Source: a virus
DNA: 37,266 nt
Direction: 5' to 3' (one strand)
Virus record (IMG/VR): IMGVR_UViG_3300046171_000122
Span: 1 to 37,266 of that record
Shown here: positions 2,643-37,266 of the stretch, piece after piece
Numbering within the stretch: position 1 is the stretch's first letter
Layout of the letters: every line of letters begins with the position of its first letter
Program-made: the position numbers and the translations under genes
Notes under the pieces: generated by a model
What the model was told of the DNA's origin: nothing
Database searches by the model: none
The model's input: the letters and a program-made list of their open reading frames with translations, nothing else

Positions 2643-2646
2643 TAAC

Positions 2647-11689: not shown

Positions 11690-11690
11690 T

Positions 11691-11993: not shown

Positions 11994-11999
11994 ATAATT

Positions 12000-12203: not shown

Positions 12204-12204
12204 G

Positions 12205-16092: not shown

Positions 16093-16309
16093 GGAATTAA
16101 TTAAGGTAGCTAAAGAACCTATTGTAGATTCAGATGATGACATCTCAGCTGATCGTTTGAAAAACGCGGCTGCAACAAAAAAGTTAGCTATATTCGATGC
16201 GTTTGAAATACTTAATCGCATTGAAGAGGAAAAGAATATGCTTGAAGATAAACCAAGCGATAGTAAACAAAAATCCTTTAAGGGTTTTGCAGAAGGTAGA
16301 TCTAAGTAA
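16037..16309 (+). CDS. Small protein upstream of TerL, possible small terminase subunit
   Basis: The protein has 90 aa and is helical. It begins MSTKKTKLNIIQAGQRAVEE, then has an acidic stretch (VDSDDDISADRLKNAAATKK) and a coiled region AIFDAFEILNRIEEEKNMLE, ending SFKGFAEGRSK. Its ATG lies within the preceding gene (56-base overlap). No other in-frame start would keep the conserved-looking N-terminus, so I keep it. It overlaps terL by one base (TAATG). Position immediately before TerL is where small terminase subunits usually lie. I do not see a clear helix-turn-helix, so TerS is inference; a TerL cofactor is an alternative. Confidence 0.55.
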   Translation: MSTKKTKLNIIQAGQRAVEELIKVAKEPIVDSDDDISADRLKNAAATKKLAIFDAFEILNRIEEEKNMLEDKPSDSKQKSFKGFAEGRSK

Positions 16310-18513
16310 TGTACAAGCAAACTTTATTTACTGTACTTACAGATTACATAAAACCCCACGTGCTTAAAAGAAATAACAAAAGCAAAAAGTGGGAGTACGG
16401 TTATAACAAAGAACACGATATAGTTGTTATAAGTAAGACTGGTCAAATAGGTGAGATATACGAAATACAAAACCTTAAAATAGCATTACCACCTTTTAAA
16501 GGTAAACTAAACAAGGATAAAGACAAATGGTCTAAAGAGGAATATCCTAAAGAATTAAATAAAATTAAAAGTGTATTTGAGTGGAATAAATACCCGGATC
16601 ACTTTAAAGAAAAATGGTATGAGTATATCGACGAAGAGTTTAAACGCCGTGACGAAGGTCACTGGTTTAATAACAAAGGTATTGCTACTTACCTCACTGG
16701 TACTCACTACATGTACTTGCAGTGGAGTAAAATTGATGTTGGGGCAGCAGATTTTAGGGAGTCAAACAGATTATTCTTTATATTCTGGGAAGCTTGCAAA
16801 GCAGATCAAAGATGCTACGGTATGTGCTACCTCAAAAACAGACGATCAGGTTTCTCATTCATGGCATCAGGCGAAACTGTTAACCTGGCAACAATCAGTT
16901 CAGATTCAAGATTCGGTATCTTATCAAAATCAGGGGCTGATGCTAAAAAAATGTTTACAGATAAGGTAGTACCCATATCAATTAACTACCCGTTCTTTTT
17001 TAAACCAATACAAGACGGTATGGACCGTCCAAAAACAGAACTAGCGTACAGAGTACCAGCGTCAAAGTTAACTCGTAGAAAACTAGATCAAGGTGAAACG
17101 CCTGACGAAGTAGTAGGTCTTGATACAACTATTGACTGGAAAAATACAGGTGACAACAGTTATGATGGTGAAAAACTAAAACTGCTTGTACACGATGAAT
17201 CAGGTAAATGGGAAAGACCTGATAACATATTGAATAACTGGAGGGTTACAAAAACAACCCTTAGATTAGGTAGTAGAATTGTCGGTAAGTGTATGATGGG
17301 ATCAACGAGCAATGCTCTTGATAAAGGTGGTGAAAACTTTAAAAAATTATACTATGCTTCAGACGTTACAAAAAGAAACCGCAATGGACAGACTAGCTCA
17401 GGACTATATTCTTTGTTCATACCTATGGAGTGGAATTACGAAGGATTCATTGATGCTTATGGACACCCTGTCTTTGATACGCCAAAAGAATCAGTTGAAG
17501 GCGCCGACGGGCTTCAAGTTGAAGTAGGTGTTATAAACCATTGGGAAAACGAAGTTGAAGGTTTAAAAGGTGATCAAGATAGTTTAAATGAATATTATAG
17601 GCAGTTTCCTCGTACAGAGCAGCATGCTTTTAGAGATGAGACAAAAGAATCTTTATTTAATCTAACTAAGATATACGAGCAGATAGATTATAACGATGAG
17701 TCTGATAACTCTAAATTAGTAACAAGAGGTAATTTTTCTTGGCAAGGTGGTATAAAAGATACTATTGTTAATTTTATGCCAAATAAAAATGGTAGGTTCT
17801 TAGTTTCATGGGTTCCACCTATACAATTACAAAATCGTGTAATAATAAAGAATGGAGTTAAATATCCTGGTAACGAGCACTGCGGTGCTTTTGGATGTGA
17901 CTCATACGATATATCAGGTACAGTAGATAATAGAGGATCTAACGGAGCTCTTCACGGACTTACAAAATTCTCTATGGAAAACGTACCGGCTAATATGTTT
18001 TTCTTAGAATATATATCAAGACCTCCAACGGCTGAGATATTCTTTGAAGATGTACTTATGGCTTTACATTTTTACGGTATGCCATTATTAGCAGAAAATA
18101 ATAAACCTAGACTTTTGTATTATTTAAAACGTAGAGGTTACAGAGCTTTCTCAATGAACAGACCAGATAAATTAAAACTGTCTGTAGCGGAAAGAGAGAT
18201 AGGTGGAATACCTAACTCATCAGAAGATATTAAGCAAGCTCACGCCGCTGCTATAGAATCTTATATAGAAGATCACGTTGGGCTTAAAGAAACTATGTAT
18301 GGTAATATGTATTTTCAAGAAACGTTAGAAGACTGGGCTAAGTTTAATATAAACAATAGAACAAAACACGATGCTTCTATTAGTTCTGGTTTGGCTATAA
18401 TGGCTTGTAACAAAAACAAATATACACCAGTTTATAAATCAAAAAAACAGGCTGTTAATTTATCATTTAAAAAATATGATAATAAAGGCAATATTTCAAA
18501 AATAATAAAATAG
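16309..18513 (+). CDS. terL: Terminase large subunit (ATPase and nuclease)
   Basis: The protein has 734 aa. It is the packaging motor that pumps DNA into the prohead and cuts it. The ATPase half shows a Walker A position YLKNRRSGFSFMAS (about 174-187) that lacks the usual GK[ST], a Walker B LLVHDES (292-298), and a coupling motif MMGSTSNA (329-336). QFPRTEQHAFRDE (about 432-444) is a common TerL feature between domains. The nuclease half starts near 525 with GAFGCDSYD, whose Asp residues fit RNase H-like motif I. FFLEYISRPPTAEIFFEDVL follows, and a late acidic helix EDIKQAHAAAIESYIEDH. The length matches the large TerL proteins of crAss-like and related marine phages. The stop is directly followed by the portal ATG. 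Confidence 0.85.
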   Translation: MYKQTLFTVLTDYIKPHVLKRNNKSKKWEYGYNKEHDIVVISKTGQIGEIYEIQNLKIALPPFKGKLNKDKDKWSKEEYPKELNKIKSVFEWNKYPDHFKEKWYEYIDEEFKRRDEGHWFNNKGIATYLTGTHYMYLQWSKIDVGAADFRESNRLFFIFWEACKADQRCYGMCYLKNRRSGFSFMASGETVNLATISSDSRFGILSKSGADAKKMFTDKVVPISINYPFFFKPIQDGMDRPKTELAYRVPASKLTRRKLDQGETPDEVVGLDTTIDWKNTGDNSYDGEKLKLLVHDESGKWERPDNILNNWRVTKTTLRLGSRIVGKCMMGSTSNALDKGGENFKKLYYASDVTKRNRNGQTSSGLYSLFIPMEWNYEGFIDAYGHPVFDTPKESVEGADGLQVEVGVINHWENEVEGLKGDQDSLNEYYRQFPRTEQHAFRDETKESLFNLTKIYEQIDYNDESDNSKLVTRGNFSWQGGIKDTIVNFMPNKNGRFLVSWVPPIQLQNRVIIKNGVKYPGNEHCGAFGCDSYDISGTVDNRGSNGALHGLTKFSMENVPANMFFLEYISRPPTAEIFFEDVLMALHFYGMPLLAENNKPRLLYYLKRRGYRAFSMNRPDKLKLSVAEREIGGIPNSSEDIKQAHAAAIESYIEDHVGLKETMYGNMYFQETLEDWAKFNINNRTKHDASISSGLAIMACNKNKYTPVYKSKKQAVNLSFKKYDNKGNISKIIK

Positions 18514-20931
18514 ATGATTTACACTAATGTTAATAGTTCTTTCCCAAGTCAGGTAGTACCAGACGCAGAGAAAAAGACATATGATTATGGCTTAGCTGTA
18601 GGAAGAGCTATAGAAAACGAATGGTTTAGAGGCGACAGAGGTTTAGGAGCTGGAGGCCGTTTTGGTAATAGTTGGCAAGATTTTCATAGATTAAGACTAT
18701 ACGCTAGAGGTGAACAATCTGTAGCAAAGTATAAAGATGAATTATCTATTAACGGTGATTTATCTTATTTAAATTTAGACTGGAAACCAGTAGCTGTATT
18801 ATCTAAGTTTGTAGATATTGTTGTAAATGGTATGACTGACAAAGGTTATAAAATAAAATCTTTTGCTTCAGATCCATATGCTTTAAAAGAAAGAACTGAT
18901 TACGCTTTTAACGCTTTACGTGATATAACTAATAAAGATTTAATAGAAGAGTTTAATGAAATAACTGGTAAAAACTTTTTTAAGACACCAGATCCAGAAC
19001 AGCTTCCTGAAAATAAACAGGAATTAGACATGTACCTTCAGTTAAATTACAAGCAAGCTATTGAAATAGCAGAAGAAGAGGCTATATCTAATGTTTTTAA
19101 TTATAATAAATATGAAGAAGTAAAAAAACGTTTGGCTTCTGATTTAACCATTATAGGTATAGCTGCAACTAAAACTGATTTTAATTTAGCTAATGGCCTT
19201 ACAGTTGAATATGTAGATCCAGCTAATTTAGTTTATTCATATACTGAAGATCCTAATTTTGAAGATATATATTATGTAGGTGAAGTTAAAAGCGTTACTC
19301 TTGAAGAACTTAAAAAACAATTTCCTTATTTAACAGATTCTGATTTAGAAGAAATACAAAAATACCCAGGTAATGTAAATTACACTCGTGATTATTACGC
19401 TCAAGACGATCAACAAAGTCAAATTCAAGTATTGTATTTTGAATATAAAACTTATGAAAATCAAGTATTTAAAATAAAACAAACAGATCAAGGTCTTGAA
19501 AAAGCTTTAGAAAAACCAGACACGTTTGATCCACCTGAAAGTGATAACTTCAATAGAGTTCATAGAGCTATAGAGGTTTTATACAGCGGTGCTAAAATAC
19601 TTGGTCACGAAAAAATGCTTAAATGGGAATTGTCTGAAAATATGACAAGACCTTTTAGTAACCAGACTAAAGTTAAAATGAACTACAATATATCTGCACC
19701 TAGAATGTACAAAGGTCGTATTGAAAGTTTAGTTAGTAAATGTATTGGGTTTGCAGATATGATACAGTTAACACATTTAAAACTACAGCAAGTGTTATCA
19801 CGTATGGTACCTGATGGTGTTTACGTTGATGTAGATGGCTTAGCAGAAGTTGATCTTGGTAATGGAACTACTTATAATCCTCAAGAAGCTTTGAATATGT
19901 ATTTTCAAACTGGTAGTATTGTAGGTAGAAGTTTAACACAAGATGGTGATCCTAATAGAGGTAAAGTACCTATACAAGAATTACAAACATCTTCTGGTAT
20001 GGCTAAAATACAAGCGTTAGTACAAACGTATCAATATTATTTACAAATGATACGTGATGTAACGGGGCTTAACGAAGCTAGAGATGGTAGTCAACCAGCA
20101 AAGGATTCGTTAGTAGGTTTACAAAAATTAGCGGCTGCAGCTTCTAATACAGCGACTAAACACATATTACAATCGTTAATGTATTTAACGGTTCGTAATG
20201 CAGAAAATATAAGTTTAAGAATATCAGACATGCTTAATTTCCCTTTAACCAAAGAAGCATTACTTAGTTCTATAAATCAATTTAATGTTTCTACATTAGA
20301 AGATATAGAAAAATTAAACACTCATGAGTTTGGTATTTTCTTAGAGTTAGAACCAGACGAGGAAGAGCAACAAAGATTAGAGCAAAATATTCAAGTTGCT
20401 CTGCAGGGTGGTCTTATAGATTTGTCTGATGCTATAGATATAAGACAAATTAGCAATTTAAAATTAGCTAATCAGTTTTTAAAATATAGACAAAAAGTAA
20501 AAGCTGAGCAAGTTAAACAAGCCCAATTACAAAATATACAAGCACAGGCCCAAGCAAACGCGGCTTCAGCTGAAAAAGCAGCTATGGCTGAAGTTCAAAA
20601 ACAACAAGCTTTAAATGAAGGTAAACTACAATTAGAGCAGGGTAAATCTCAGTTTGAAATACAAAGAATGCAAACAGAAGCTGAGATAAAAAGACAATTA
20701 ATGGAACAAGAGTTTCAATATAACTTACAGTTAGCACAAGCTAGAGCTAATGTTGAAAAAGCTAAAGAACAAGAAATAGAAGATCGTAAAGACGAGCGTG
20801 CTAGAATTATAGGTACACAGCAATCAGAAATGATTTCGCAGCGTCAAAACGATGAACTACCTAAAAACTTTGAGTCATCTGGATTTGACTCACTAGGGGG
20901 ATTTGGACTAGAACAGTTTGAGCCTCGTTGA
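18514..20931 (+). CDS. Portal protein, 805 aa
   Basis: This protein would form the dodecameric ring at the capsid vertex through which DNA passes. It directly follows terL and precedes the scaffold and capsid genes, the normal portal position. The N-terminal part has SYLNLDWKPVAVLSKFVDIV and VNGMTDKGYKIKSF, a pattern I recall from portals of crAss-like and marine phages. The centre (about 430-560) carries LTHLKLQQVLSRMVPDGVYV and DVTGLNEARDGSQPAKDSLV, typical portal clip/stem motifs (VTGLNEARDG). From about residue 620 a long Gln/Ala/Glu/Lys-rich coiled coil runs nearly to the end, like the internal barrel of large podophage portals. The length of about 800 residues agrees with that group. 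Confidence 0.85.
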   Translation: MIYTNVNSSFPSQVVPDAEKKTYDYGLAVGRAIENEWFRGDRGLGAGGRFGNSWQDFHRLRLYARGEQSVAKYKDELSINGDLSYLNLDWKPVAVLSKFVDIVVNGMTDKGYKIKSFASDPYALKERTDYAFNALRDITNKDLIEEFNEITGKNFFKTPDPEQLPENKQELDMYLQLNYKQAIEIAEEEAISNVFNYNKYEEVKKRLASDLTIIGIAATKTDFNLANGLTVEYVDPANLVYSYTEDPNFEDIYYVGEVKSVTLEELKKQFPYLTDSDLEEIQKYPGNVNYTRDYYAQDDQQSQIQVLYFEYKTYENQVFKIKQTDQGLEKALEKPDTFDPPESDNFNRVHRAIEVLYSGAKILGHEKMLKWELSENMTRPFSNQTKVKMNYNISAPRMYKGRIESLVSKCIGFADMIQLTHLKLQQVLSRMVPDGVYVDVDGLAEVDLGNGTTYNPQEALNMYFQTGSIVGRSLTQDGDPNRGKVPIQELQTSSGMAKIQALVQTYQYYLQMIRDVTGLNEARDGSQPAKDSLVGLQKLAAAASNTATKHILQSLMYLTVRNAENISLRISDMLNFPLTKEALLSSINQFNVSTLEDIEKLNTHEFGIFLELEPDEEEQQRLEQNIQVALQGGLIDLSDAIDIRQISNLKLANQFLKYRQKVKAEQVKQAQLQNIQAQAQANAASAEKAAMAEVQKQQALNEGKLQLEQGKSQFEIQRMQTEAEIKRQLMEQEFQYNLQLAQARANVEKAKEQEIEDRKDERARIIGTQQSEMISQRQNDELPKNFESSGFDSLGGFGLEQFEPR

Positions 20932-20964
20932 AAATAAAATCCTTTAATTTTATACTATTATATT

Positions 20965-22152
20965 ATGTCAGAAGAAGTAAAACAAGAAGGAGAGTTTAAA
21001 ATAAAAACCCCTTCAAAACCTAAAAATTTAGGTAAATCAAGTAATGAAGTTACTAAGGTTAATATTAAAGAACCTTTAATAGAAACAGAACCAGAAGTTA
21101 CTAAAGTAATAATAAAAGAAGAAGACGATGCCGTTCAAACACAAGAGACAAATGATAGCAATGCTATTATCGAAAAGCACGAAGACAGTGGCAACAGCGA
21201 AGAAGTGGTTGAAGAAGTACGGACCCCCGACAAAGAAGTAGAATCTCCTTTAACTGTAATTGAAGATACTGAAGAAGAACAAAAACAAAACGAAGTAACT
21301 AAAGAAGTAGAACAAGCCGTGCAAGAGCAAAGGGTTCTACCTGAAAATATTGAAAAACTAGTTTCTTTCATGGAAGAGACTGGTGGAACTGTACAAGACT
21401 ATGTTAGGCTTAATGCAGATTATACCAACGTTGATAATAAAACTTTAATTAGAGAATATTATAAACAAACTAAACCACATTTAGATTCTGAAGATGTAAG
21501 TCTTTTATTAGAAGACTTTGATTACGATGAAGATATAGATGAACCAAAAGATATACGCAAAAAGAAAATTGCGTTTAAAGAGGAGGCTGCAAAAGCTAAA
21601 GACTTTCTTGAAAGCTTAAAAAGTAAATACTACGACGAGATCAAGTTGAGACCGGGCGTAACTCAAGAGCAACAAAAAGCTACAGACTTTTTCAACCGAT
21701 ACAACGAAGAGCAAGACTCTATAAAGCAAAAACAGGATATTTTTTTAAACAAAACATCTAATCTTTTCACTGATGATTTCGAAGGTTTCGATTTTAATGT
21801 TAGTGAAAAAAAATTTAGATATAATATTAAAAATCCTAAACAGGTAGCAGAGCAACAATCTGATATTACTAATTTTGTTAAGACGTTCTTAAATGAAAAA
21901 GGAGAAATATCAGATGCTAAAGGTTACCACAAAGCTTTATACGCAGCGCGTAATGCTGACACTATAGCACAACATTTTTATGAGCAAGGCAAAGCCGATG
22001 CTGTGAAAGATGTTATGGTTAAATCTAAAAATATAAGTACAGAACCTAGGCAAACAGCTTCTGGTAATGTATTTGTTAACGGATTAAAAGTTAAAGCAAT
22101 TAGCGGTCTTGATTCTTCAAAATTAAAAATCAAAACTAAAAAATTTAACTAA
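20965..22152 (+). CDS. Scaffolding-type protein, 395 aa
   Basis: The protein is very acidic in its first ~130 residues, mostly Glu, Lys, Thr and Val in low-complexity order, with a partial internal repeat (NEVTKVNIKE and PEVTKVIIKE). It then becomes helical and charged (FKEEAAKAKDFLESLKSKYY) and ends in the basic tail SSKLKIKTKKFN. Position between portal and major capsid gene, acidic helical composition and basic C-terminus fit a capsid scaffold whose tail contacts the shell protein. I see no protease motif. It is not recognised by sequence signature, so the call rests on context. Confidence 0.65.
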   Translation: MSEEVKQEGEFKIKTPSKPKNLGKSSNEVTKVNIKEPLIETEPEVTKVIIKEEDDAVQTQETNDSNAIIEKHEDSGNSEEVVEEVRTPDKEVESPLTVIEDTEEEQKQNEVTKEVEQAVQEQRVLPENIEKLVSFMEETGGTVQDYVRLNADYTNVDNKTLIREYYKQTKPHLDSEDVSLLLEDFDYDEDIDEPKDIRKKKIAFKEEAAKAKDFLESLKSKYYDEIKLRPGVTQEQQKATDFFNRYNEEQDSIKQKQDIFLNKTSNLFTDDFEGFDFNVSEKKFRYNIKNPKQVAEQQSDITNFVKTFLNEKGEISDAKGYHKALYAARNADTIAQHFYEQGKADAVKDVMVKSKNISTEPRQTASGNVFVNGLKVKAISGLDSSKLKIKTKKFN

Positions 22153-22167
22153 CAAAAACTTATCATT

Positions 22168-23637
22168 ATGAGTTTAACTCCAACATTTGGTACTTTAGTA
22201 CCATCTCAAAAACAACAAGCTTTAGCTGATAACTATCTAAAGTTTAACGACGGTTCAGGTAATGACTTTGCACAGCAATATCTACCTGAAATCTATGAGC
22301 AAGAAGTAGAGCGTTACGGTAACCGTACACTATCTGGATTCTTACGTATGGTAGGCGCTGAAATGCCAATGACATCTGATCAAGTAATTTGGTCTGAACA
22401 AAACCGTCTACACATTTCTTATACAGCCGTAGCTGCAAACCTATCTAACGCAACACACTTAGACCTTACAACTGTAAACGGAACTACTGTAGTAAACGTA
22501 ATCTCTATTAACGATACTATCGTTATTATGGACGTTTCAGACGGTGGTGAAGCTAAAGGTATTGTAACTGACGTGCCTACAATTAACGGTGGTACTCTTG
22601 CTGATGCTGGTCATATCGCTGTACAGCTTTATGGAGGTTCAGACGTACAAACTGTATTTGCTTCAGCAACTGATTTGAAAATCTTTGTGTATGGATCTGA
22701 CTATACTAAAGGTACTTCAATTGGTACTGGCGCTGGTAACTCAGCTACACGTGTAAGCGTAACTCCACAGCTAACTCAATATAGCAACTCTCCAGTAATT
22801 ATTCGTAATCAATATGTAGTATCAGGATCTGACGCTGCTCAAATTGGTTGGGTGGAAGTAGCAACTGAAGACGGAACTTCTGGATATCTATGGTATCTAA
22901 AAGCTGAGTCTGAAACTCGTCTACGTTTCGAAGATTACTTAGAAATGGCTTTGGTTGAAGGCGAATTAAACACTAATGCTGGTGCTGGAGCATATCAAGC
23001 TAGCAAACTTCCTGGCACGCAAGGTTTATTTGCTGCTATCGAAGAGCGTGGTAATAAGCTTGTAGGCTTCACTGCTTCTGGTAACGACGGTTTAGCTGAT
23101 TTTGATGCTATCCTTAAAAACCTAGACACTCAAGGTGCTATTGAAGAAAACATGCTTTTCTTAAATCGCCAAACATCTCTAGATTTTGATGATATGCTAG
23201 CTGGCTTAAACGGTGGAAACACTGGTGCTGGTGCTGCTTACGGTTTGTTTGAAAACTCTGAAGACATGGCATTAAACCTTGGCTTTAGCGGTTTCCGTAG
23301 AGGTTCTTATGACTTCTATAAAACTGACTGGAAATATCTAAATGACGCTTCAACTCGTGGCGCTATTGATGGAATTAGTTCTGTCGAAGGTGTATTAGTT
23401 CCTGCTGGTACTTCAACTGTATATGACCAAATTCTTGGTACTAACATCCGTCGTCCATTCTTACACGTGCGATATAGAGCATCACAAAGTGATGATCGTC
23501 GTATGAAGACTTGGTTGACTGGTTCAGTTGGTGGTGCTTATACCTCAACTCTTGATGCAATGGAAGTAAACTTCCTATCTGAAAGATGTTTGATTACTCA
23601 AGGTGCTAACAACTTTGTTATTTTCAAAGGAGTGTAA
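22168..23637 (+). CDS. Major capsid protein, 489 aa
   Basis: The protein starts MSLTPTFGTLVPSQKQQALA and includes LPEIYEQEVERYGNRTLSGF and LYWYLKAESETRLRFEDYLE-like helices in the middle. It ends with VNFLSERCLITQGANNFVIF followed by KGV, a C-terminus I recall from capsid proteins of crAss-like and marine phages. About 490 residues is typical there. Position after portal and scaffold, and a strong inverted repeat right after the stop, support a highly expressed shell protein. Codon use differs from its neighbours: Arg is mostly CGT, and AAC and GAC are common, whereas nearby genes favour AGA. That fits selection for fast translation. It is expected to have the HK97 fold. Confidence 0.85.
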   Translation: MSLTPTFGTLVPSQKQQALADNYLKFNDGSGNDFAQQYLPEIYEQEVERYGNRTLSGFLRMVGAEMPMTSDQVIWSEQNRLHISYTAVAANLSNATHLDLTTVNGTTVVNVISINDTIVIMDVSDGGEAKGIVTDVPTINGGTLADAGHIAVQLYGGSDVQTVFASATDLKIFVYGSDYTKGTSIGTGAGNSATRVSVTPQLTQYSNSPVIIRNQYVVSGSDAAQIGWVEVATEDGTSGYLWYLKAESETRLRFEDYLEMALVEGELNTNAGAGAYQASKLPGTQGLFAAIEERGNKLVGFTASGNDGLADFDAILKNLDTQGAIEENMLFLNRQTSLDFDDMLAGLNGGNTGAGAAYGLFENSEDMALNLGFSGFRRGSYDFYKTDWKYLNDASTRGAIDGISSVEGVLVPAGTSTVYDQILGTNIRRPFLHVRYRASQSDDRRMKTWLTGSVGGAYTSTLDAMEVNFLSERCLITQGANNFVIFKGV

Positions 23638-26584: not shown

Positions 26585-29500
26585 ATGGCTGAAGTTAAAA
26601 ACGCGTTCATCAAATCAAAGATGAACAAAGACCTTGATGCTAGACTTATACCACAAGGTGAATATCGCAACGCTGTAAACATACAGGTTAGTAAGTCAGA
26701 AGGTGATGATGTCGGCGCGTTAGAAAATGTATTAGGTAATAAATCTATGGCTGATTTTAATACTGCTAATGGTGGTGTTTCTGTAGGTAGTTGTATAGGT
26801 TTTTTTGTAGATGAGTTTAACAGCACTGTGTATTTATTTTTTACAGACTATACAGATCCATATACTGATAATGTATCTACTTACAATAAAAATGCTAAAA
26901 ATTTTATATTTAGTTTTAACACTAGAAATAGTATTATTACTAAATTAGTACAAGGTTCTTTTTTAAATTTTTCTACTAACAAACCTATTATAGGTGTAAA
27001 CCTATTAGAAAATTTATTATTTTTTACAGATAATAGAAATCAACCTAGAAAAATAAATATTCAATTAGCTAAAGACGAAGGTGTAGGTTATTACAATACA
27101 GAAGATAAAATATCTGTAGCTAAATATAATCCTCACCAATCTATTCAAGTTATAAAAGAAACATCTTCTGGGTCTGGAGTTTATGAAACTACAATGAAAG
27201 ATAGGTTTAGTGAGTATATTCCTTTAAACGATAGCACTTCACCTAACGTACAAAACCCGTATTGGGCAGGTGAAGATCCTAGTGGTAACCCTAACTTTGC
27301 TGGAGATCCTCAGTACTTAGAAGATAAATTTGTAAGATTTAGTTATAGATTTAAATTTGTAGATGGTGAATATTCTATATTTGCTCCATTTACACAAGAG
27401 TGTTTTATACCTAAACAAGATGGTTATTTTTTATCTGGTGACGAACGCCAAACTTTTACAAGTACAGTTGTAGAGTTTATGGAAAATAAAGTAAATCAAA
27501 TAGATTTACAAATACCATTACCAACTGGTAAATCTACTTTAAATTCTAATTTTCAAATAACTGAAATAGATATTTTATATAAAGAATCAGATTCTTTAGC
27601 AACTCAAGTGGTAGAAACTATACAAGTTGTTGGTAATCCTTTATTTACTGGAACAGATACTATGTTTGAATATTCGTACTTATCTACAAAACCTTACAGA
27701 ACTCTTCCAGAAGCAGAGCTTATTAGAGTATATGATAAAATTCCAGTAAAAGCTTTTGGTCAAGAAGTTATTAGTAACAGGGTTGTTTATAGTAATTTTC
27801 AAGATAAGCACACTCCTCCTCCAGCTATTGATTATCAAGTTTCTGTAACTCCTAAATATGGTAATACTGAAACTTATACTTCTTTATCTCAAGTTGAATA
27901 TCCAAACCACAGCGTAAAACAAAATAGAAACTATCAAGTAGGTATTGTATTAGCTGATAAATACGGTAGACAATCAACAACTTTACTTTCAAATAATACT
28001 GACGCTTCTAGCGAAACGTTTAGAGCTGATACTGTTTATCTTCCTTACGAAGATTCTAATAACTCTATAACTTTTCCAGGAGATTCTTTAAAAGTTCAAT
28101 TTAATACACTGTTTGTAGGAAATGGATTTGATAAAGACGAACTTACTGGAATACCTGGTTTATACAATGGAGATCCTACAAGTGATGGCTATAATCCACT
28201 TGGTTGGTATAGTTATAAAATTGTAGTTAAGCAACTAGAGCAAGAGTATTACAATGTATACACAGCTGGTGCTATAAAAGGAACTCCATATTATAGTACG
28301 ACTACATCTCCACCAGTTCCGCTTTCAGATCAAAACTCTACATTTATAACATTGTTAAATGATAATATAAACAAAGTGCCTAGAGATTTAACAGAAGTTG
28401 GAGCTCAAGACAAACAGTTTAGAAGTTCTGTTAGGCTTTTTGGTAGAGTTGTTAACACTAATATAGAATTTAGCAATGTTGGTAACGAACAATATTTTCC
28501 AGGAAGAAAATCTTTTACTGTAAATCAAATTGAAGATTTGTTTGACGCTTTCGATGTATTACAGCTTAAAAACAACAGTGGAGATATAATACCAGTTACT
28601 AGTCCTAAAAGTCCTTATTACGCTTTTTTTAGATCTGAATCAAACCCTTTTATAGCAGAGTTTGTTACTTCACAAACAACAGCCGATCAATTCGGTGTTG
28701 TTAATTTAGAGTATCAAAATAATGGTAATACAGATTATTTAAGATTTGAAAACTTAAACATTTTAGAAACTAAACCTACAGTTTCAAGATTAGATATATT
28801 TTGGGAATCTAGTACAACAGGTTTAATATCAGTATTAAACACAGCTATAGATGCGGGTGGTGGTGGAAGTGCTGGTGTTGGAAATTTCACACCTACACTA
28901 ACAGAAGCTACTTCACCCGGTGATGTGATTGTAGATAATTTTTTCTTTACAGATTTAGTTGGTAATCCACTTAGTCCTAACCCAACAACGGTTACTTTAG
29001 TTAGACAGTATAACAACGCTACGGGTACTGATGTAACAAAGTTTAACCTTGTTAATAATGGTGATGGTACTTATGATATAACAGTACAAGCTGGAGAATA
29101 TTTTTACTATGGTTCAAATGGAACTACATATGCTTTAGAATTTAATGTAGATGGTGGAAGTCCAAACTTTACAAGAACAATATCTATTGGTAATATAGCT
29201 CCTTCTATAACTAATACTCCAACGACTATCGCTGCCACAAAAGGCCAAGTTAATATACTAGCACCAATAACGGGTGTTAATGGTTCTAATCCTTCAGGAG
29301 GTCAATCTACTGTAGGTTTAACATACTCTATTACTTCGCAAAGTGGTAGTGGTAATTTTGTAATATCAAGTGGTAATGTAACTAACAATGATTCTACAGC
29401 TGAAGGTACTGGTACGTTTACACTACAAGTAACAGACGCTGGTGGCGCTATTGGATCAACAACGTTTACTGTAAATTTTACAGCTCCTACAGTTCCTAGT

Positions 29501-30706
29501 AATTTTAGTGATAATAGCATGGATTTAACAATGAAGGATGGTGAAGGTGCTTCGTTATATTTTGCTAGTAATGCTACTGGTATTTCTACAAGCGCAACTA
29601 CAGTTGTTAACTCTGGAACTACTAATAACTATATGCAAGGATTTAGTTCTTTAAGCGCTTTAGACGTTGCGTTGACAAACAACATATGTACTTCTGGTAG
29701 TAATTATACTGGGCAATATACAAATATATCTTCATCACCAGGTTTAACACAAGGCACTTTTTATGTTATTTTAAAACTTAATAATTTATATCCTATATCA
29801 GCGGGAACTCCAGGTGGTGTTTCATCTTTTACTTCTGAAATAAATCAAAGGTTTGCAATACAGTACAGAGCTAATTCAAATAACTCTTGGCAAGCTGCTA
29901 ATGATTTAAACGGAGATTCTATACAATATAATGGAGGTACATATGAAAACAGCTCTGCTAGTTTAACGGGTATGACAAACACGACTAATACCTCAACAAG
30001 TTTTGGTACAAATGGTATAGGTGTTAATCAAACGGTAATATCTACATCTGTTAATGATATATTTAGGTTTTCACCAGCTGGTAGAGTTTTCGCGTTTAAT
30101 AATGTTGGTGATTATAGATTTTTATTTGGTAATTTAGCTGGTGGCGGAGGTATTACACACCCGTTTCCTTACGATAACCCACCAACATTAGTAGCAAGTC
30201 CATTTCTTTTAAATGGAACTGTTAATTGCAATGTTCCTTTTTATTATACTAATGGTGCTATGACTCAACAAGTTGTTTTCGGTGATTTTAATTCTCCAAC
30301 TAGCGCTTCTGGTATAATACAAATAGCACCTGAGTTTTCAACTTATGGAAGTGTTTATAAATATAGAATATCATCAACTGGTAGCGCCACCGTTTTAACA
30401 AACCCAAATATTGATAGCACAGCTATAAATCCACCAACTGGATTTACAGATGTATATGCTGCTGAACCTTTTGCTAAATACGCAACTCAATTTTATACAG
30501 ATGTAAATCTTACTACTAAATTTACAGCTACTAATAATTATTATTATTATTTTTGTAGATTACAATATATAGATCCAAATAGTCAACCTTTCCCGGTACA
30601 ATTTGCATCTAATTATGAAACTAACAAAGGTGGTGTTTATCAAACTAGATTAAATTCAACAGGTTTAAATATTGATTCAACACCTATAATTAGCTTATAC
30701 ACTTAA
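26585..30706 (+). CDS. Giant tail protein (muzzle/stabilisation type), 1373 aa
   Basis: The N-terminus AEVKNAFIKSKMNKDLDARL, then IPQGEYRNAVNIQVSKSEGD and ALENVLGN, is a signature I recall from the large tail 'stabilisation' or muzzle proteins of crAss-like and marine phages. The first ~760 residues are beta-rich (NLLENLLFFTDNRNQPRKIN, FVRFSYRFKFVDGEYSIFAP). A segment at about 774-971 looks like one or two Ig/cadherin-type domains (NIAPSITNTPTTIAATKGQV..., TGTFTLQVTDAGGAIGSTTF). The last ~400 residues are Ser/Thr/Asn-rich and may form a surface-exposed tip. It would build the distal short tail. The ATG lies seven bases after the preceding stop. Confidence 0.7.
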   Translation: MAEVKNAFIKSKMNKDLDARLIPQGEYRNAVNIQVSKSEGDDVGALENVLGNKSMADFNTANGGVSVGSCIGFFVDEFNSTVYLFFTDYTDPYTDNVSTYNKNAKNFIFSFNTRNSIITKLVQGSFLNFSTNKPIIGVNLLENLLFFTDNRNQPRKINIQLAKDEGVGYYNTEDKISVAKYNPHQSIQVIKETSSGSGVYETTMKDRFSEYIPLNDSTSPNVQNPYWAGEDPSGNPNFAGDPQYLEDKFVRFSYRFKFVDGEYSIFAPFTQECFIPKQDGYFLSGDERQTFTSTVVEFMENKVNQIDLQIPLPTGKSTLNSNFQITEIDILYKESDSLATQVVETIQVVGNPLFTGTDTMFEYSYLSTKPYRTLPEAELIRVYDKIPVKAFGQEVISNRVVYSNFQDKHTPPPAIDYQVSVTPKYGNTETYTSLSQVEYPNHSVKQNRNYQVGIVLADKYGRQSTTLLSNNTDASSETFRADTVYLPYEDSNNSITFPGDSLKVQFNTLFVGNGFDKDELTGIPGLYNGDPTSDGYNPLGWYSYKIVVKQLEQEYYNVYTAGAIKGTPYYSTTTSPPVPLSDQNSTFITLLNDNINKVPRDLTEVGAQDKQFRSSVRLFGRVVNTNIEFSNVGNEQYFPGRKSFTVNQIEDLFDAFDVLQLKNNSGDIIPVTSPKSPYYAFFRSESNPFIAEFVTSQTTADQFGVVNLEYQNNGNTDYLRFENLNILETKPTVSRLDIFWESSTTGLISVLNTAIDAGGGGSAGVGNFTPTLTEATSPGDVIVDNFFFTDLVGNPLSPNPTTVTLVRQYNNATGTDVTKFNLVNNGDGTYDITVQAGEYFYYGSNGTTYALEFNVDGGSPNFTRTISIGNIAPSITNTPTTIAATKGQVNILAPITGVNGSNPSGGQSTVGLTYSITSQSGSGNFVISSGNVTNNDSTAEGTGTFTLQVTDAGGAIGSTTFTVNFTAPTVPSNFSDNSMDLTMKDGEGASLYFASNATGISTSATTVVNSGTTNNYMQGFSSLSALDVALTNNICTSGSNYTGQYTNISSSPGLTQGTFYVILKLNNLYPISAGTPGGVSSFTSEINQRFAIQYRANSNNSWQAANDLNGDSIQYNGGTYENSSASLTGMTNTTNTSTSFGTNGIGVNQTVISTSVNDIFRFSPAGRVFAFNNVGDYRFLFGNLAGGGGITHPFPYDNPPTLVASPFLLNGTVNCNVPFYYTNGAMTQQVVFGDFNSPTSASGIIQIAPEFSTYGSVYKYRISSTGSATVLTNPNIDSTAINPPTGFTDVYAAEPFAKYATQFYTDVNLTTKFTATNNYYYYFCRLQYIDPNSQPFPVQFASNYETNKGGVYQTRLNSTGLNIDSTPIISLYT

Positions 30707-30709
30707 AAT

Positions 30710-31999
30710 ATGGCAGCAGTAGTAGAAGTAAAATATTTTAATTCCTTTTTATTAAAAAAGACAATGCCTACTGGAGCGACTAGCACTACAGATCCTATAT
30801 GGATGGGTAGCACGGGTGTTCCGTCTGGTTCTAATGGTAGTTACCCTGTAACAGCTGTTAGTGGTACAGATCAAGCTAATAGCTGGGGTATTGAAGAAGC
30901 TAGAATAAGGGGTGGTTTTAACAACACTAATGTATCTTACGGCGCTAAAGCTTATTTAGTAGAAGATGAACCAAACGCATCTGACAGAACCAATAGTATG
31001 ATATACTCTGGTGTGTTTAATTCTAGAACAGGTGTTAATGATACTAATGTATTTAGCGTAGGTGAAGATATAACTAGATCTGTAGATCCTGCAAATGGTA
31101 GTATACAAAAACTATATGCTGAAGATACAAACCTTATTATATTCCAAGAAAATAAAGTTAGTAAAGCTTTAATAGATAAAGACGCTATATACTCTGCAGA
31201 AGGACAAGGATCTGCGGTTAGTACGCTTAACTTAGTTATAGGTCAAATAGTACCTTACGCTGGTAACTTTGGTATTAGTAAAAATCCAGAAAGCTTTGCT
31301 GTGTATGGATATAGAAAATATTTTACAGATAAAAATAGAAATGCTGTAATGCGTTTATCTCAAGACGGTCTTACTGAAATATCTAACTATGGCATGATAG
31401 ACTATTTTAGAGATGAGTTTAAAAATTTAGATACAGTAGCTGTTAATGGAAAAGCTATTGGTGCTTGGGATATATACACAAAGCAATATGTATTAAGCTT
31501 GCAAGGTTCTAATATTATAAACACATACCAAACTTTGGCTTTTGATGAGTCTGTTAGAGGTTGGACTAGTTTTTACACATATAAACCTGAACAAACTTTT
31601 AGTGTACAGAGTAATTACTTTAGCATTAAAAACGGTCAACTATGGCGTCATAATAATGAAACAGGTCAAAACAACGATAGATCTATATTTTACGGAGTTT
31701 ATTCTGATTCTTCAATTACATTTATATTTAATCCTCAAGTTAGCTTGTCTAAGGTTTTTAAAACTGTAAACTACGAAGGATCAACAGGTTGGGAAGTTTC
31801 AGGTTTTAATGCTGCTAGAAGTTTTGATTTAAATGATACTTCTAATTTAGTTTATAGCTATGACGAAGGAGCTTATCTAGATCCAAATACAGGTATACAG
31901 TATTACGCAGGTTTTTACAAAAAAGAAGGAAAGTATTTTGCTAATTTAATTAATAGTAGTCAAGCTACTTCTGGCGAGGTTGTTTTTGGAACAGCATGA
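30710..31999 (+). CDS. Tail protein, 429 aa, paired with the muzzle-type protein
   Basis: It starts MAAVVEVKYFNSFLLKKTMP three bases after the giant tail gene. Conserved-looking blocks are EEARIRGGFNNTNVSYGAKA, YLVEDEPNASDRTNSMIYSG, QKLYAEDTNLIIFQENKVSK and GYRKYFTDKNRNAVMRLSQD. I recall these from proteins that follow the stabilisation protein in marine phages. It is probably part of the distal tail. The end GEVVFGTA is immediately followed, in another frame, by MTGVKGYYSTVTIRTDN, which reads like its natural C-terminus (see 31996-32127). So the gene is probably cut short by a one-base frameshift at the GCATGA junction. Confidence 0.7.
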   Translation: MAAVVEVKYFNSFLLKKTMPTGATSTTDPIWMGSTGVPSGSNGSYPVTAVSGTDQANSWGIEEARIRGGFNNTNVSYGAKAYLVEDEPNASDRTNSMIYSGVFNSRTGVNDTNVFSVGEDITRSVDPANGSIQKLYAEDTNLIIFQENKVSKALIDKDAIYSAEGQGSAVSTLNLVIGQIVPYAGNFGISKNPESFAVYGYRKYFTDKNRNAVMRLSQDGLTEISNYGMIDYFRDEFKNLDTVAVNGKAIGAWDIYTKQYVLSLQGSNIINTYQTLAFDESVRGWTSFYTYKPEQTFSVQSNYFSIKNGQLWRHNNETGQNNDRSIFYGVYSDSSITFIFNPQVSLSKVFKTVNYEGSTGWEVSGFNAARSFDLNDTSNLVYSYDEGAYLDPNTGIQYYAGFYKKEGKYFANLINSSQATSGEVVFGTA

Positions 32000-32542: not shown

Positions 32543-33010
32543 ATGGGAGATGTAGGAAAATCAGTACAAGCAGGTGCAGATCTAGCTATTGGAATGGCGC
32601 AGGTTGGTCTTGGGTATGCTGGATTAAGTTTTCAAAAGCAGCAATATAGAGACGCTAGAAGACGTGAACAAGGTTTGATGGCAGAAATGGAAGAGATAGA
32701 AAACACAAGGCAAGATGTTATAAACCCTTATGAAGGTGTAGAAGACTTGACTGGTATGATTTCTAATCCTATGGCAACTTTATCTGTAGCCACACAAGCA
32801 GCTGAATTCCAAGCTGAAGAAGCTGATATATCACTAGCCAATACCTTAGACACGCTTAGAGCTACAGGCGCGTCAGCTGGTGGAGCTACTGCTCTTGCCC
32901 AAGCAGCATTACAAAGTAAGCGTGGTATATCTGCAAGTTTAGAACAGCAAGAGGTTAATAACGAAAAACTTAGAGCACAGGTGAAGCTAAAGTTATGCAA
33001 GCTAGAATAG
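32543..33010 (+). CDS. Internal virion/ejection-type protein, N-terminal part, 155 aa
   Basis: The protein starts MGDVGKSVQAGADLAIGMAQ with a glycine-rich hydrophobic stretch, then helical QQYRDARRREQGLMAEMEEI and Ala-rich TLRATGASAGGATALAQAAL. It ends SASLEQQEVNNEKLRAQ followed by VKLKLCKLE, which looks like frame noise. Adding one G at CAGGTG (near 32981) would continue the frame as GEAKVMQARIAEAQRMQQAD, joining the next ORF. Ala/Gln-rich helical proteins after the tail genes are typical internal or cargo proteins of short-tailed phages. The gene is probably one 258-residue protein split by a one-base loss. Confidence 0.6.
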   Translation: MGDVGKSVQAGADLAIGMAQVGLGYAGLSFQKQQYRDARRREQGLMAEMEEIENTRQDVINPYEGVEDLTGMISNPMATLSVATQAAEFQAEEADISLANTLDTLRATGASAGGATALAQAALQSKRGISASLEQQEVNNEKLRAQVKLKLCKLE

Positions 33011-33315
33011 CTGAAGCACAGCGCATGCAGCAGGCGGATGTATTAGGTAGAGAGTTTGTATATGGTGAAGAAGAAAGAAGGGATATGGAGCAACTAAATA
33101 GGCTGCAAGCGCAAATAACAGGTCAACAACAAGCCCAAACAGCCGCCACACAAGGAGTAGCCGCTGTAACAGGTTCTACTATAGGAGCTCTTCAAGGACT
33201 TGGCGATACTATCGGCAGCACGGATTTTGCTACAAGAAGCAGCAGTGGTCAGAGTTATAGTGACTATAAAAAAGGTGGGGGAACTATGAGTAGAAAAGAT
33301 TTTAGAGGAAGTTAG
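32995..33315 (+). CDS. C-terminal part of the internal virion protein, 106 aa
   Basis: It overlaps the preceding ORF by 16 bases. The product MQARIAEAQRMQQADVLGRE, then FVYGEEERRDMEQLNRLQAQ, continues the same Gln/Ala/Glu-rich helix as the upstream frame. It ends in a Gly/Ser-rich tail SYSDYKKGGGTMSRKDFRGS. The ATG is probably an internal Met of one longer protein rather than a real start. If the frameshift is real, the two pieces could still be translated in a coupled manner. Confidence 0.55.
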   Translation: MQARIAEAQRMQQADVLGREFVYGEEERRDMEQLNRLQAQITGQQQAQTAATQGVAAVTGSTIGALQGLGDTIGSTDFATRSSSGQSYSDYKKGGGTMSRKDFRGS

Positions 33316-33317: not shown

Positions 33318-34877
33318 ATGGCACAATTACCAAGATTTTCAAGAAACTACGGGCGTTCAGGCGCTTACGAAAACCCAGCTACAGTTGTTGATACAAAAAC
33401 AGCTCAGATATGGGCTAATGTTATAGACAATATAGGCAAACAAACACAAGCTAGATTAGCAAGTAAAAGAAAAGCTGAAGCTGCAGTAGTAAAAGAAACG
33501 CAAGATAAAATTGCTTACAGTATTAAACAACGTAAGGAAAATGCTAAAGAAGTTTATAAATTTCTAGGTGTAAATGGTCTTAACAACCCAGCGCTTATTG
33601 ATTATGCTACAGAACAAATAGATACGCTTACAAAAATAGACATGGAGTCTTATAAGGCCACTGATCCAAGAGAAGCTAATGAGTTTGCTAAACAATACGA
33701 TGCGCAGTACCAAAGCATGCTTAGCATGAAAGGTGTTCTTACTTCAATGAAAGAATCTGATGCTATGTGGAAAGCTGGTTTAGGTAGTGAATCTACAGTT
33801 CTTGGTGTTGGCAGTCCAGGTGGTTTATCTGCTTACAGTGATAAAGATCGCCAGTATATTTATGGAAACATGATAAGAAGTGGTATGGGTGATGGTGGTA
33901 CTGAAAGATTTTATAAAGATGAAGCTGGTACTATGATGGTTGAATATAAAGGCGGTGTTGCTGGTAAAGAAGGTTTTACAGTTGTAGCTGAAGATTTCTT
34001 TAATTACATGCCTGAAACAGTTCCAGACGATAAAACTGATCTTACTAGTAGACTTCAAAAAAGTAACGTTATAACTAAAGACTTAACTATTAGCCCAACT
34101 CTTAGAGAAAAACAAAACGGTGAAGATATTGTTAGATCGGATATAGATCGTAACACTCAAAGTCTAGTTACTTTTTCACCTTTAAATACTTCACAAATAG
34201 CAGCTTCTTCTGCTACAATTTCTAAAGCATTAGCTACAAATAGATTAATGTCTGTAGCTGCTCAAAACTCTTACACACAAAACGTAAGACCATTTTTAGA
34301 AAGTAGAGGTATTACACAAGAAGACGGTAGTGAATGGCCAAAAGAATTAGAAACTGGAGATGGTATAAACGGTAAAAGTTTTTATAGTGATAAATCACAA
34401 GGAATATATAAACAAGCTTTAACAGCTTATACAGAAAACATGTTTGGTTTAAATAAAACAAATCAAGTTATATCAACAACTAAACTTACTGACTCTGAAT
34501 TTAAACGTCGTCTTGGTATTGTAGATGATAAAGATAAACAAACCAAAATAGATATTAGCTATATAGATGAATTAAAAATACCTATACAGTCTGGTCCAGC
34601 CCTAGAGTCAGGCCAAAGACCAGTTGACTTAGAAGAGTTAGAATTATCATTAAACAACGAGGGTTTTAGGGTTACTAAATCAGAAGAAGTAGGTAGAAGA
34701 GGTGTTAATAAAATTACTATAACTAAATCTATAGGTGGAGCTGATAACCAAGCTGTTATTACAGAGGAAATGACTCCTCAAGATATTAAACGTCAACTTG
34801 AATTAGTTGAAACTGGTAAAATGCCAATTAGAAAAGAAGATGAAGATTTTAGTCTTTATAAAATACAAAACCAATAA
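33318..34877 (+). CDS. Internal virion / cargo-type protein, 519 aa
   Basis: The sequence starts MAQLPRFSRNYGRSGAYENP, then a long charged helix (ANVIDNIGKQTQARLASKRK and AEAAVVKETQDKIAYSIKQR). Further helices carry YATEQIDTLTKIDMESYKAT and EFAKQYDAQYQSMLSMKGVL. The C-terminal third is beta-rich with repeated acidic and Ile/Thr strands (NKITITKSIGGADNQAVITE). I see no enzyme motif or membrane helix. Located between the Ala/Gln-rich protein and the large partial protein, it fits the set of internal proteins ejected with the DNA in short-tailed phages. Confidence 0.55.
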   Translation: MAQLPRFSRNYGRSGAYENPATVVDTKTAQIWANVIDNIGKQTQARLASKRKAEAAVVKETQDKIAYSIKQRKENAKEVYKFLGVNGLNNPALIDYATEQIDTLTKIDMESYKATDPREANEFAKQYDAQYQSMLSMKGVLTSMKESDAMWKAGLGSESTVLGVGSPGGLSAYSDKDRQYIYGNMIRSGMGDGGTERFYKDEAGTMMVEYKGGVAGKEGFTVVAEDFFNYMPETVPDDKTDLTSRLQKSNVITKDLTISPTLREKQNGEDIVRSDIDRNTQSLVTFSPLNTSQIAASSATISKALATNRLMSVAAQNSYTQNVRPFLESRGITQEDGSEWPKELETGDGINGKSFYSDKSQGIYKQALTAYTENMFGLNKTNQVISTTKLTDSEFKRRLGIVDDKDKQTKIDISYIDELKIPIQSGPALESGQRPVDLEELELSLNNEGFRVTKSEEVGRRGVNKITITKSIGGADNQAVITEEMTPQDIKRQLELVETGKMPIRKEDEDFSLYKIQNQ

Positions 34878-34886: not shown

Positions 34887-37266
34887 ATGGCTAAATACAA
34901 GATTGGTACGGATCTATATGATTTACCTGAAGAAAAAGTAGAATCTTTTTTGTCTAAATATCCTGATGCTGTAGAAGTTACAGAAGAAATACAAACTGAC
35001 CCTGAGGGAAAGACAACGGTGCTGTGGCAACAGGGATGCGGCTGTAGCACCAGTAACAACCCCAAGCAGAGCATCATGATTGTAGATGCTCAACCAGAGA
35101 GTACGGAATTAGAATCGGTAGATACTTCTGGGGAATTACAACCAGGTGAGCAAGGTTACTATAGGCAAGAAAAAAGAAAAGAAAAAGCAGCTAAAGAAAG
35201 TCAACAAGATAAATCTAACTGGGAAAGATTTGATTTTTTAGATGATGCTGGACAAAGATTTAAAATATCTTTAAAAAGTATAGAGCAAGGTATAACTAGA
35301 ATACCAACTCTTATCAATGAAGTTAAATTTTCTATATTAAAACCTTTTTTATCAGAAGAAGATCAGGAAAAATTTAATGACTTAAACGCGGAAGAACAAC
35401 AAGCTTTTGTAAATAGACTAGGGTCTGCGCAGCAACAAGCTATGAGTTCTTTTGGTATAGCGACAATACCTGTAGATGCTCAAAAAAGTTTAGAAAAATC
35501 TGAAGAAGCAAGATTACAGTTGGAAGATTTAGAATCTGAATTAGTTCAATTTGAAAATACAATAGGTCAAGATATAGCTGATGGAAATTTAGGTAGAGCT
35601 GTAACGAGAACTGCTTCTCAAGCCATAGGTACTATACCATCTTTAGTACAAGCTTTTATTCCTTATGTTGGTATACCTAGTATAGTTGCTGGCGAAGCTG
35701 CTAAAGCATCTGGAGAGGCACAAAGAAAAGGCAAAGATATAGATCTTAAAACTATAGGTTATAGTTCTGTTATAGGAGCATCAGAAGGTTTGCTAGAAAT
35801 ATTTACAAAGAAATTAGGTAAAAATGTTTTTAAAAGTTTAGTAAATAGTCCTAAAGAAGTTGTAGAAAAAAACATTAAAGACGTAGTTTTAAACGTTAGC
35901 AAAAGCGCAGGTGGAGAGGGTCTTTCTGAAAGTGGTACTCTTACTATAAATAAAATGGCTGATGCTATATATCGTGTAGATGAAAAAGCTTTTGATAACT
36001 ATGTGCTTGATTTAGTAGATACGTTTATTTTAGGCACTGCTGTTGGTGGACCATTAAGAGGCACTGGCGAGGCAGGTGGTTTATTAAAAAATGCAGCAGA
36101 AGCTAGAAGCGTAAACAAAGAGCTAAAAGAATCACAATACGAAAATTTAACAGAAGTTTTTAGAGACCCTACTGTAGATGAAGGAACTGTTAAATTAAGT
36201 GAAAATAAATTTACAGAAAAGTTTTTAGATTTTGATTTAAAACAAAAGCTAAACTCTGGTGATATTACCACTGAAGAAGCTGCAGGAATAAAAACTAATT
36301 TTATACAAACACAAGGAGCGATCAACAGTTTGAAGCCTTTAAACTTATCAACTACAGATAGAGCAGAGGTTATAGAACTTTCTAAAGAAAAAAAATCTTT
36401 AGAAAATACTATAAAGCAAGTAGATGATAAAGCGTTGACTGAACCTCAAGATCAAAGAGTTAAAGAAATAAATGAACTTCTTAGAGGTTATAGTGCTAGA
36501 GCTAAAACAGCTGAAACAGCTAAGGTTGGCCAAGCTATTAGCCAATTAGAAAAAGTAGGTATACAAACTTTATCTACAGAGGAAATACAAAGCTATCTAC
36601 AAAACAATAACCTTGTAGAAAATCAAGAAGACGCTATTAAAAAATCTGGTGAAGGTGCTTTTATAATACAAAATCCAGATACAAAAGAACAAGAGATAAT
36701 AGTTAACAAAGATATAGGTAGCATATCAGATCCTTCGCATGAAGGTTTACATGCTCTTATATTCCAAACAGTTAGAAAAAGTCCTGATACAGCTAGAAGA
36801 CTAAGCGAGTCGTTACAAGAGCAATTAAATAAAGTTGATCCTAATTTAATAGAAGATTCTGGTATACGTGAAAGATTAGAGTTATACAGTAAAGATCCTA
36901 CAGCAGTACAAATGGAAGAAGTATTAACTTTATTTTCTGACACTGTTAGAAATGGCACTGTAAAATTTAATGATAGTACATTTACAAAAATAGGTGATTT
37001 TATTCGTCAGTTTTTAAGCAAGCTAGGTGTTAAAGCTAAGTTCAATAATGGTCGTGATGTATATAACTTTATAAAAGATTACAATAAAAGTATTGAGTCT
37101 GGTAAATTAACTAGAGGTCAAGTACGTGCAGCTAAAGAAGGTGTAAGAGGTAAACTTGTTGGTCCTAAAATAGAAACATTTGATGACGCTGCAATTATAA
37201 AAGAAGCTAGATCAGATGAAGCGTCACAACGTGTTCAAGATATATACGAGCAACAAGGTGAAGCTG
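34887..37266 (+). CDS. Large virion protein with HExxH motif, cut by the window edge (793+ aa)
   Basis: The ATG at 34887 opens MAKYKIGTDLYDLPEEKVES, then FLSKYPDAVEV, an N-terminus I recall from large internal virion proteins of marine phages. QQGCGC follows near residue 50. A hydrophobic Ala/Ile/Gly-rich part (RTASQAIGTIPSLVQAFIPY) lies near 230-260. At 618-622 is HEGLH within DPSHEGLHALIFQTVRKSP, an HExxH zincin motif, with EE near 677-678 in MEEVLTLFSDTV as a possible third-ligand helix. The next part ends DVYNFIKDYNKS. The frame stays open to the last base, so the end is missing. It is likely an ejected protein with a metallopeptidase-like domain; its length suits the largest cargo proteins. 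The activity is inferred. Confidence 0.65.
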   Translation, partial: MAKYKIGTDLYDLPEEKVESFLSKYPDAVEVTEEIQTDPEGKTTVLWQQGCGCSTSNNPKQSIMIVDAQPESTELESVDTSGELQPGEQGYYRQEKRKEKAAKESQQDKSNWERFDFLDDAGQRFKISLKSIEQGITRIPTLINEVKFSILKPFLSEEDQEKFNDLNAEEQQAFVNRLGSAQQQAMSSFGIATIPVDAQKSLEKSEEARLQLEDLESELVQFENTIGQDIADGNLGRAVTRTASQAIGTIPSLVQAFIPYVGIPSIVAGEAAKASGEAQRKGKDIDLKTIGYSSVIGASEGLLEIFTKKLGKNVFKSLVNSPKEVVEKNIKDVVLNVSKSAGGEGLSESGTLTINKMADAIYRVDEKAFDNYVLDLVDTFILGTAVGGPLRGTGEAGGLLKNAAEARSVNKELKESQYENLTEVFRDPTVDEGTVKLSENKFTEKFLDFDLKQKLNSGDITTEEAAGIKTNFIQTQGAINSLKPLNLSTTDRAEVIELSKEKKSLENTIKQVDDKALTEPQDQRVKEINELLRGYSARAKTAETAKVGQAISQLEKVGIQTLSTEEIQSYLQNNNLVENQEDAIKKSGEGAFIIQNPDTKEQEIIVNKDIGSISDPSHEGLHALIFQTVRKSPDTARRLSESLQEQLNKVDPNLIEDSGIRERLELYSKDPTAVQMEEVLTLFSDTVRNGTVKFNDSTFTKIGDFIRQFLSKLGVKAKFNNGRDVYNFIKDYNKSIESGKLTRGQVRAAKEGVRGKLVGPKIETFDDAAIIKEARSDEASQRVQDIYEQQGEA

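Follow-up and report, generated by a model that had tools for sequence, protein, structure and literature searches.

Gene content of the window

The window, that is, the whole stretch of DNA analysed, is a marine phage record of 37,266 bases which stops inside its last gene, so that the reading frame at 34887-37265 has no 3' end. The features of this gene and of the virion gene run that precedes it are as follows.

16309..23637, + strand: terminase large subunit, portal, an intervening gene and a virion structural (capsid-like) protein, by PHROGs matches; the virion gene run begins with these
26585..31999, + strand: two virion-region genes, of which 30710-31999 matches phrog_14478 'virion structural protein' (6.7e-46)
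32543..33315, + strand: two small upstream virion-region genes, 32543 with homologs in 63 of 89 loci and 32995 with homologs in 32
33318..34877, + strand: virion-region gene upstream that diverges fast; 7 of 89 loci have a detectable homolog, which adjoins the giant gene where seen
34887..37265, + strand: truncated gene of a giant protein, of which it encodes the first 793 aa; open at the 3' end; intact relatives have 2,193-3,593 aa
36504..37196, + strand: region modelled as a zincin metallopeptidase domain, residues 540-770 (alignment A1, 70 rows; AlphaFold2 mean pLDDT 82.6)
36729-36764, + strand: DPSHEGLHALIF, residues 615-626 of the 793-residue ORF
36738..36752, + strand: HEGLH (HExxH), residues 618-622, comprising the two His predicted to bind zinc and the general-base Glu; H, E and H are each conserved in 80 of 80 relatives
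36912-36947, + strand: MEEVLTLFSDTV, residues 676-687 of the 793-residue ORF
36915..36920, + strand: E677-E678 in the second helix, E678 being the predicted third ligand; 80 of 80 relatives, and EE 50, DE 4, TE 1, HE 1, gap 1 in a separate set of 57
37062..37085, + strand: YNFIKDYN helix, which closes the domain; invariant in the first set of relatives (it was one of its search patterns), strict form in 29 of 80 in the second

Elsewhere in the window, positions 9443-11243 encode a GroEL-like protein (Pfam Cpn60_TCP1, 1.1e-56) adjoining a gene judged by sequence to be GroES-like; the GroEL of Cellulophaga phage phi38:1 is among the methylated proteins listed for free virions in PMC13288928. A tail-fibre-like protein of 1,477 aa with many GNVGIGTTSP-type repeats is found at 4176-8609, and a second, short HExxH protein (82 aa, HEMVH) at 13448-13696, with matches to DUF6782 (7.4e-4) and phrog_16532 (7e-11).

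The giant protein and its C-terminal block

Relatives of the giant were collected as a first set, the best 80 of 85 confirmed IMG/VR loci; a pattern scan of genome contigs gave 2 relatives among 153 pattern matches. In the first set 62 ORFs are complete at both ends and span 2,056-3,593 aa; the shortest of them (L024) is broken by a frameshift, which raises the intact minimum to 2,193 aa. The C-terminal block of ~630 aa is found in 62 of the 63 ORFs uncut at the 3' end (in partial form in L024), the exception being L080, where the block sits in the next frame. The split genes of L024 and L080 were considered as a sign of natural processing and rejected, as each gene is interrupted within the conserved C-terminal block, apparently by a frameshift.

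Upstream of the giant gene, homologs of window gene 30710 were detected in 70 of the 89 loci and those of 32543 in 63. The giant is thus encoded among late virion genes, and its zincin region is one part of a large multidomain protein. Other enzyme-like domains occur in relatives of the window's giant, whose own downstream domains lie beyond the end of the record: in the 17 giants scanned, Zeta_toxin/AAA_33 was matched in two (Pfam) and the phrog_415 polynucleotide kinase in five (PHROGs). The giants of L024 and L065 contain the Walker A motifs GGPGAGKT and GGAGSGKS. Residues about 1501-1691 of the L003 giant match phrog_415 'polynucleotide kinase' (7.7e-7) and hold a FDFDDTL...FVLTARP stretch, which we take to be HAD-phosphatase-like.

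Four of the six named phage records, namely elemoE, phi38:1, phi13:2 and Gundel_1, have counterparts annotated as structural, and the giants lie at the equivalent place in the first three and elsewhere in the genome of Gundel_1. The other labels are 'tRNA methyltransferase' (Panino) and 'reticulocyte binding/rhoptry protein' (ctfjg026). The structural label in the phi38:1 record is given as 'based on similarity to phi18:1_gp101'; proteomics by Holmfeldt et al. in 2013 is said to lie behind structural labels such as this one. The model of the C-terminal block (pLDDT 80.9) gave no firm structural match, the longest alignment among the top rows being a weak one to a PhiM1 ejectosome chain (Z 4.3 over 170 residues), and a tblastn search of the L003 C-terminal part against phages gave no match.

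The giant is likely to be present in the virion. The initial annotation had proposed a large, probably ejected virion protein, and a large protein encoded together with virion genes is indeed what the locus holds; that it is ejected is suggested by the gene order, the counterparts annotated as structural, the likeness to the virion RNA polymerase (vRNAP) of phage N4 and the single weak structural match mentioned above.

Conservation of the motif

The HExxH motif with a Glu about 55 residues downstream, on which the initial annotation was built, was confirmed as HEGLH at 36738-36752 and a Glu pair at 36915-36920, with a spacing of 56 residues between H622 and E678. None of the patterns used to collect the first set contained HExxH or the EE pair, and the residues were compared in blastp alignments with the window protein, which are not anchored on the motif. 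All 80 relatives share H618, E619, H622, E677, E678 and S684 with the window protein. In the same set the invariance of YNFIKDYN is selected for, as this octapeptide served as one of the search patterns. A second set of 80 relatives, found only by the pattern EE[x][LI]T[LV][FM]S[DE], has HExxH in all 80 and the strict YNFIKDYN in 29; 28 of its 80 cores are identical to a first-set core. For a third set the patterns were drawn from the C-terminal block only, and all 57 rows that align to the A1 profile at 1e-3 contain HExxH, the Glu pair reading EE in 50, DE in four, TE and HE in one each and being a gap in one. Since the second of the two Glu positions is the less variable in this set, which is not selected on Glu, E678 is likely the better candidate for the third ligand than E677. 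A comparison of the window with L002 over 223 codons (NG86) gave dN 0.077 and dS 0.64, which corresponds to purifying selection.

A sequence as short as HExxH may also arise by chance within a structural protein. From the own composition of the window protein, however, only 0.0005 occurrences are expected, and given the conservation in 80 of 80 relatives and the zincin layout of the predicted fold this explanation is so improbable that it was rejected.

Predicted fold and family matches

An AlphaFold2 model was built from alignment A1 (mean pLDDT 82.6, about 80-93 locally around the motifs). In the numbering of the model, strands 18-23, 52-56 and 63-68 form a three-stranded sheet and are followed by helix 77-91, which carries the HExxH at 79-83, and by helix 133-149 with the Glu pair at 138-139. 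The metallopeptidase with a downstream Glu ligand of the initial annotation is therefore supported as regards a zincin-type domain, both by the alignments and by this order of elements, which is that of zincins, and it would be expected to bind zinc and to act as a protease.

Searches against structures and families returned few matches. Foldseek comparison of the zincin-domain and C-terminal models with the PDB gave no match at E 0.001, and the best rows against BFVD, which include structural proteins of Flavobacterium phage elemoC, Tenacibaculum phage Gundel_1 and Cellulophaga phage phi17:2, ranged from 1.5e-3 to 1e-2, none reaching 0.001 or better. The best seven rows of VIA-align are lethal-factor chains (Z 4.9-6.3), two of which align over the catalytic-domain range 599-776 and five of which begin on the N-terminal domain (residue 59); they are followed by a YbeY-like protein (1oz9, Z 3.9) and by collagenase and MATCAP peptidases around Z 3. 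This ranking agrees with a zincin, although the Z scores are modest, staying below 8 and short of the value regarded as firm. Scanned against Pfam and PHROGs, the window protein gave nothing significant; Peptidase_M78 (ImmA/IrrE) matched 20 of the 70 members of A1, the best of them with E 1.2e-4, whereas the window sequence itself gave no such match at E 1. PDB sequence searches were without match, for the profile even at E 1.

Sequence similarity to the zincin region of N4 vRNAP was assessed with a profile of 13 rows; IMG/VR gave one locus, N4 itself, and 12 relatives were taken from named phage records. The hhalign comparison with A1 gave a score of 38.0, E 1.6e-4 (as one comparison) and a probability of about 50%. 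It exceeded the scores of all 100 full column shuffles (mean 14.1) as well as those of all 100 shuffles in which the HExxH block was kept (mean 29.6, maximum 34.2). As judged by the high mean of the block-kept shuffles, the motif block accounts for the larger part of the score, and some signal lies outside it. Taken together, the domain in the window is very probably a zincin of the metallopeptidase (MPTase) kind known from polyvalent proteins.

Forms lacking the first His and exchange of front halves

Sampling by the C-terminal block confirmed at least 518 relatives, of which the best 80 form a sample that leans to close relatives of L003. In 77 of these 80 the 5' end lies in the locus, and after two fragments following a stop (L197, L229) were left out 75 giants remained. 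The zincin slot is recognisable in all 75: it is of the A1 type in 56 and has another HExxH in ten (66 of 75 with HExxH), and one (L236) has the HExxxH form HEMVGH. In the remaining eight the first His is missing, the motif reading EELFH in L186, L187, L198, L201, L207 and L208 and QEVGH in L215 and L265. These forms keep the second His and the general-base Glu, followed by the Glu-bearing second helix, and the simplest reading of their sequences is that normal zinc binding has been lost. As eight giants with the same C-terminal block lack this His, protease activity does not seem to be always needed. A label tree made by a quick method gave two changes for EExxH, a single origin being still compatible with the starred branches, but it does not date the loss of the His because front halves recombine. 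The zincin slot is constant, and its occupant is variable.

Exchange of the front half is seen in the comparison of L003 with L186. Their nucleotide identity is 88.7% in an upstream flank of 1,658 bases and 91.8% in a second flank of 6,005 bases that starts inside the giant, while between these flanks ~6.3 kb and ~7.6 kb, which hold the front of the giant, are without a blastn match; tblastx found one piece of 92 codons (49%) in this stretch. The C-terminal blocks of the two are 98% identical and their zincin regions have no blastp match. The converse is found in the pair L186/L198, with front parts 74-80% identical and a C-terminal block at 70%. Across 128 distinct giants, zincin regions are less than 45% identical in 12 of the 47 pairs with a C-terminal identity of at least 90%, and in 37 of the 96 pairs in which it is at least 80%, the pairs being not independent and the zincin window being placed by motif search. 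Inspection of nine pairs revealed clear front replacement in seven, partial replacement in one (L259/L261) and none in one (L053/L056, collinear, 67%). We did not encounter front-half exchange of this kind in the literature as far as it was accessible to our search, which does not prove that it is unpublished. It is this pattern of exchange that is unusual; the kind of zincin itself is already known.

Proposed role and alternative explanations

The last gene of the window would encode the front part of a giant protein, probably packaged in the virion, with an embedded zincin of the MPTase kind. The giant would be carried in the particle and leave it together with the DNA, whereupon the zincin may cleave a protein of the newly infected cell, for which the initial annotation had proposed a host envelope or defence protein. 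Phages would swap the front half of the giant, i.e. the N-terminal region with the zincin, because the substrate varies between hosts, and the C-terminal block would be kept as an anchor in the particle. Both the host protein as substrate and the anchoring role of the C-terminal block are presumed. The chain as a whole is put forward tentatively and falls somewhat short of being probable, since the argument rests on pattern: a substrate that changes with the host would best account both for the forms without the first His and for the otherwise strict retention of HExxH and Glu. The modest structural and profile scores, the eight giants without the first His and the giants of isolates without HExxH speak against it, and exchange of the front half would likewise be expected of a part in contact with a variable receptor or membrane.

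The zincin might instead be a self-processing protease that cuts the giant before packaging, in the head or after ejection, thereby freeing other domains. Iyer et al. (PMC5512222) can be counted in favour of such a role, as can the enzyme-like domains present in some giants (Zeta_toxin/AAA_33, phrog_415). N4 vRNAP, however, is reported to be packaged unprocessed and to show no evidence of degradation (PMC12633501). Moreover, obligatory self-maturation would make forms without the first His rare or compensated, whereas the domain is kept without this residue in eight of 75 giants, and three giants of isolates have no HExxH. Self-processing is thus rather unlikely, and these forms, together with the exchange of front halves, favour a target that is specific to the lineage, and probably host-directed, over obligatory self-maturation. 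A mainly architectural domain, which would serve encapsidation, folding or autoinhibition and whose proteolysis would be secondary or lost, would agree with the recognisable slot in all 75 giants, including those lacking the first His. It would also agree with N4, where the MPTase-bearing region is required for encapsidation (PMC5512222) and the C-terminal domain with the HExxH subdomain regulates the polymerase (PMC12633501). Yet in a purely structural domain, which needs neither HExxH nor the Glu, both should drift; among close and mid-range relatives they are identical without exception (80 of 80), and divergent zincins retain them, so that we regard this explanation as unlikely, too.

Ejected podovirus proteins frequently contain wall-degrading domains, and the initial annotation had suggested a target in the envelope. 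Cleavage of peptidoglycan or of an envelope protein could help the DNA to cross the cell wall, but Pfam and PHROGs scans revealed no wall-binding or lytic domain in the giants examined, and in 16 of the 89 loci a homolog of window 12360-12722, which is wall-enzyme-like, was detected as a gene apart from the giant. Hence an envelope enzyme appears very unlikely.

The host-cleavage reading has a further extension, which is speculative and rather doubtful at present: the giant may be a polymorphic particle-borne effector, whose constant C-terminal block would ride in the virion, while its front half would bear the zincin as a warhead and be swapped as hosts change the target. Phages otherwise about 90% identical would thus exchange fronts with different zincins, forms lacking the first His among them. 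If true, phage particles would carry interchangeable protease modules, a logic comparable to that of polymorphic toxins. Predictions of proteases that enter the host with phage DNA go back to 2017. Near-identical phages that differ in the zincin-bearing half, together with the natural forms lacking a predicted ligand, provide a natural comparison for finding the substrates of such proteases, and the same comparison could separate the self-processing, structural and host-cleaving hypotheses.

Comparison with known systems

Among solved structures the chains nearest by VIA-align are those of the lethal-factor family (M34), which shares HExxH and a downstream Glu with the domain described here. 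It differs in that there is no sequence match, the context is another one and the Z scores lie below the firm level.

The resemblance to the MPTase domains of polyvalent proteins is closer. According to Iyer et al. (2017, J Bacteriol, PMC5512222), zincin-like MPTase domains occur in polyvalent proteins, an HExxxH form exists, the MPTase domain is tied to lethal factor by HHpred, and the HExxH region of N4 vRNAP is zincin-like and related to lethal factor. The three-stranded sheet, the HExxH helix, the Glu helix and a variable insert between the helices recur in the predicted domain of the window, which likewise belongs to a large protein with other domains and is encoded among late virion genes; the HExxxH form has its counterpart in L236. 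In contrast, the window domain has no significant Pfam or PHROGs family match, and the exchange of front halves and the forms without the first His seen here are not met in the part of PMC5512222 available.

N4 vRNAP (gp50), as presented in PMC12633501, is a giant of 3,500 aa that is ejected and encoded last in the virion gene run. In it a zincin subdomain C1 with HExxH is followed by a large helical C-terminal part (PDB 9pnr and others), much as in the giants described here. In contrast to gp50, the giants scanned gave no match to an RNA polymerase domain, and the neighbouring genes and the C-terminal sequence differ.

The window protein itself gave a sole tblastn match against phages, to Maribacter phage Panino (residues 135-453, outside the zincin), and HExxH is absent from the giants of Panino, phi38:1 and phi13:2. 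The protein CDS0069 of L082 (PP540027.1), labelled 'tRNA methyltransferase', is 31% identical to the window giant in its N-terminal part (E 4e-27), and L086 (MW202828.1) encodes at 741-12320 a giant of 3,860 aa with two HEFGH segments, perhaps two zincins. The 'structural proteins' of the Flavobacterium elemo phages, Tenacibaculum phage Gundel_1 and Cellulophaga phages phi38:1 and phi13:2 represent the same kind of giant gene beside virion genes. The elemoE giant has an A1-like zincin (E 1.3e-5), and that of Gundel_1 has part of the C-terminal block in common (E 6.5e-13) and carries an HEFGH zincin-like segment. Related giants thus occur in isolated phages of culturable marine bacteria, which makes tests of the proposed role possible.
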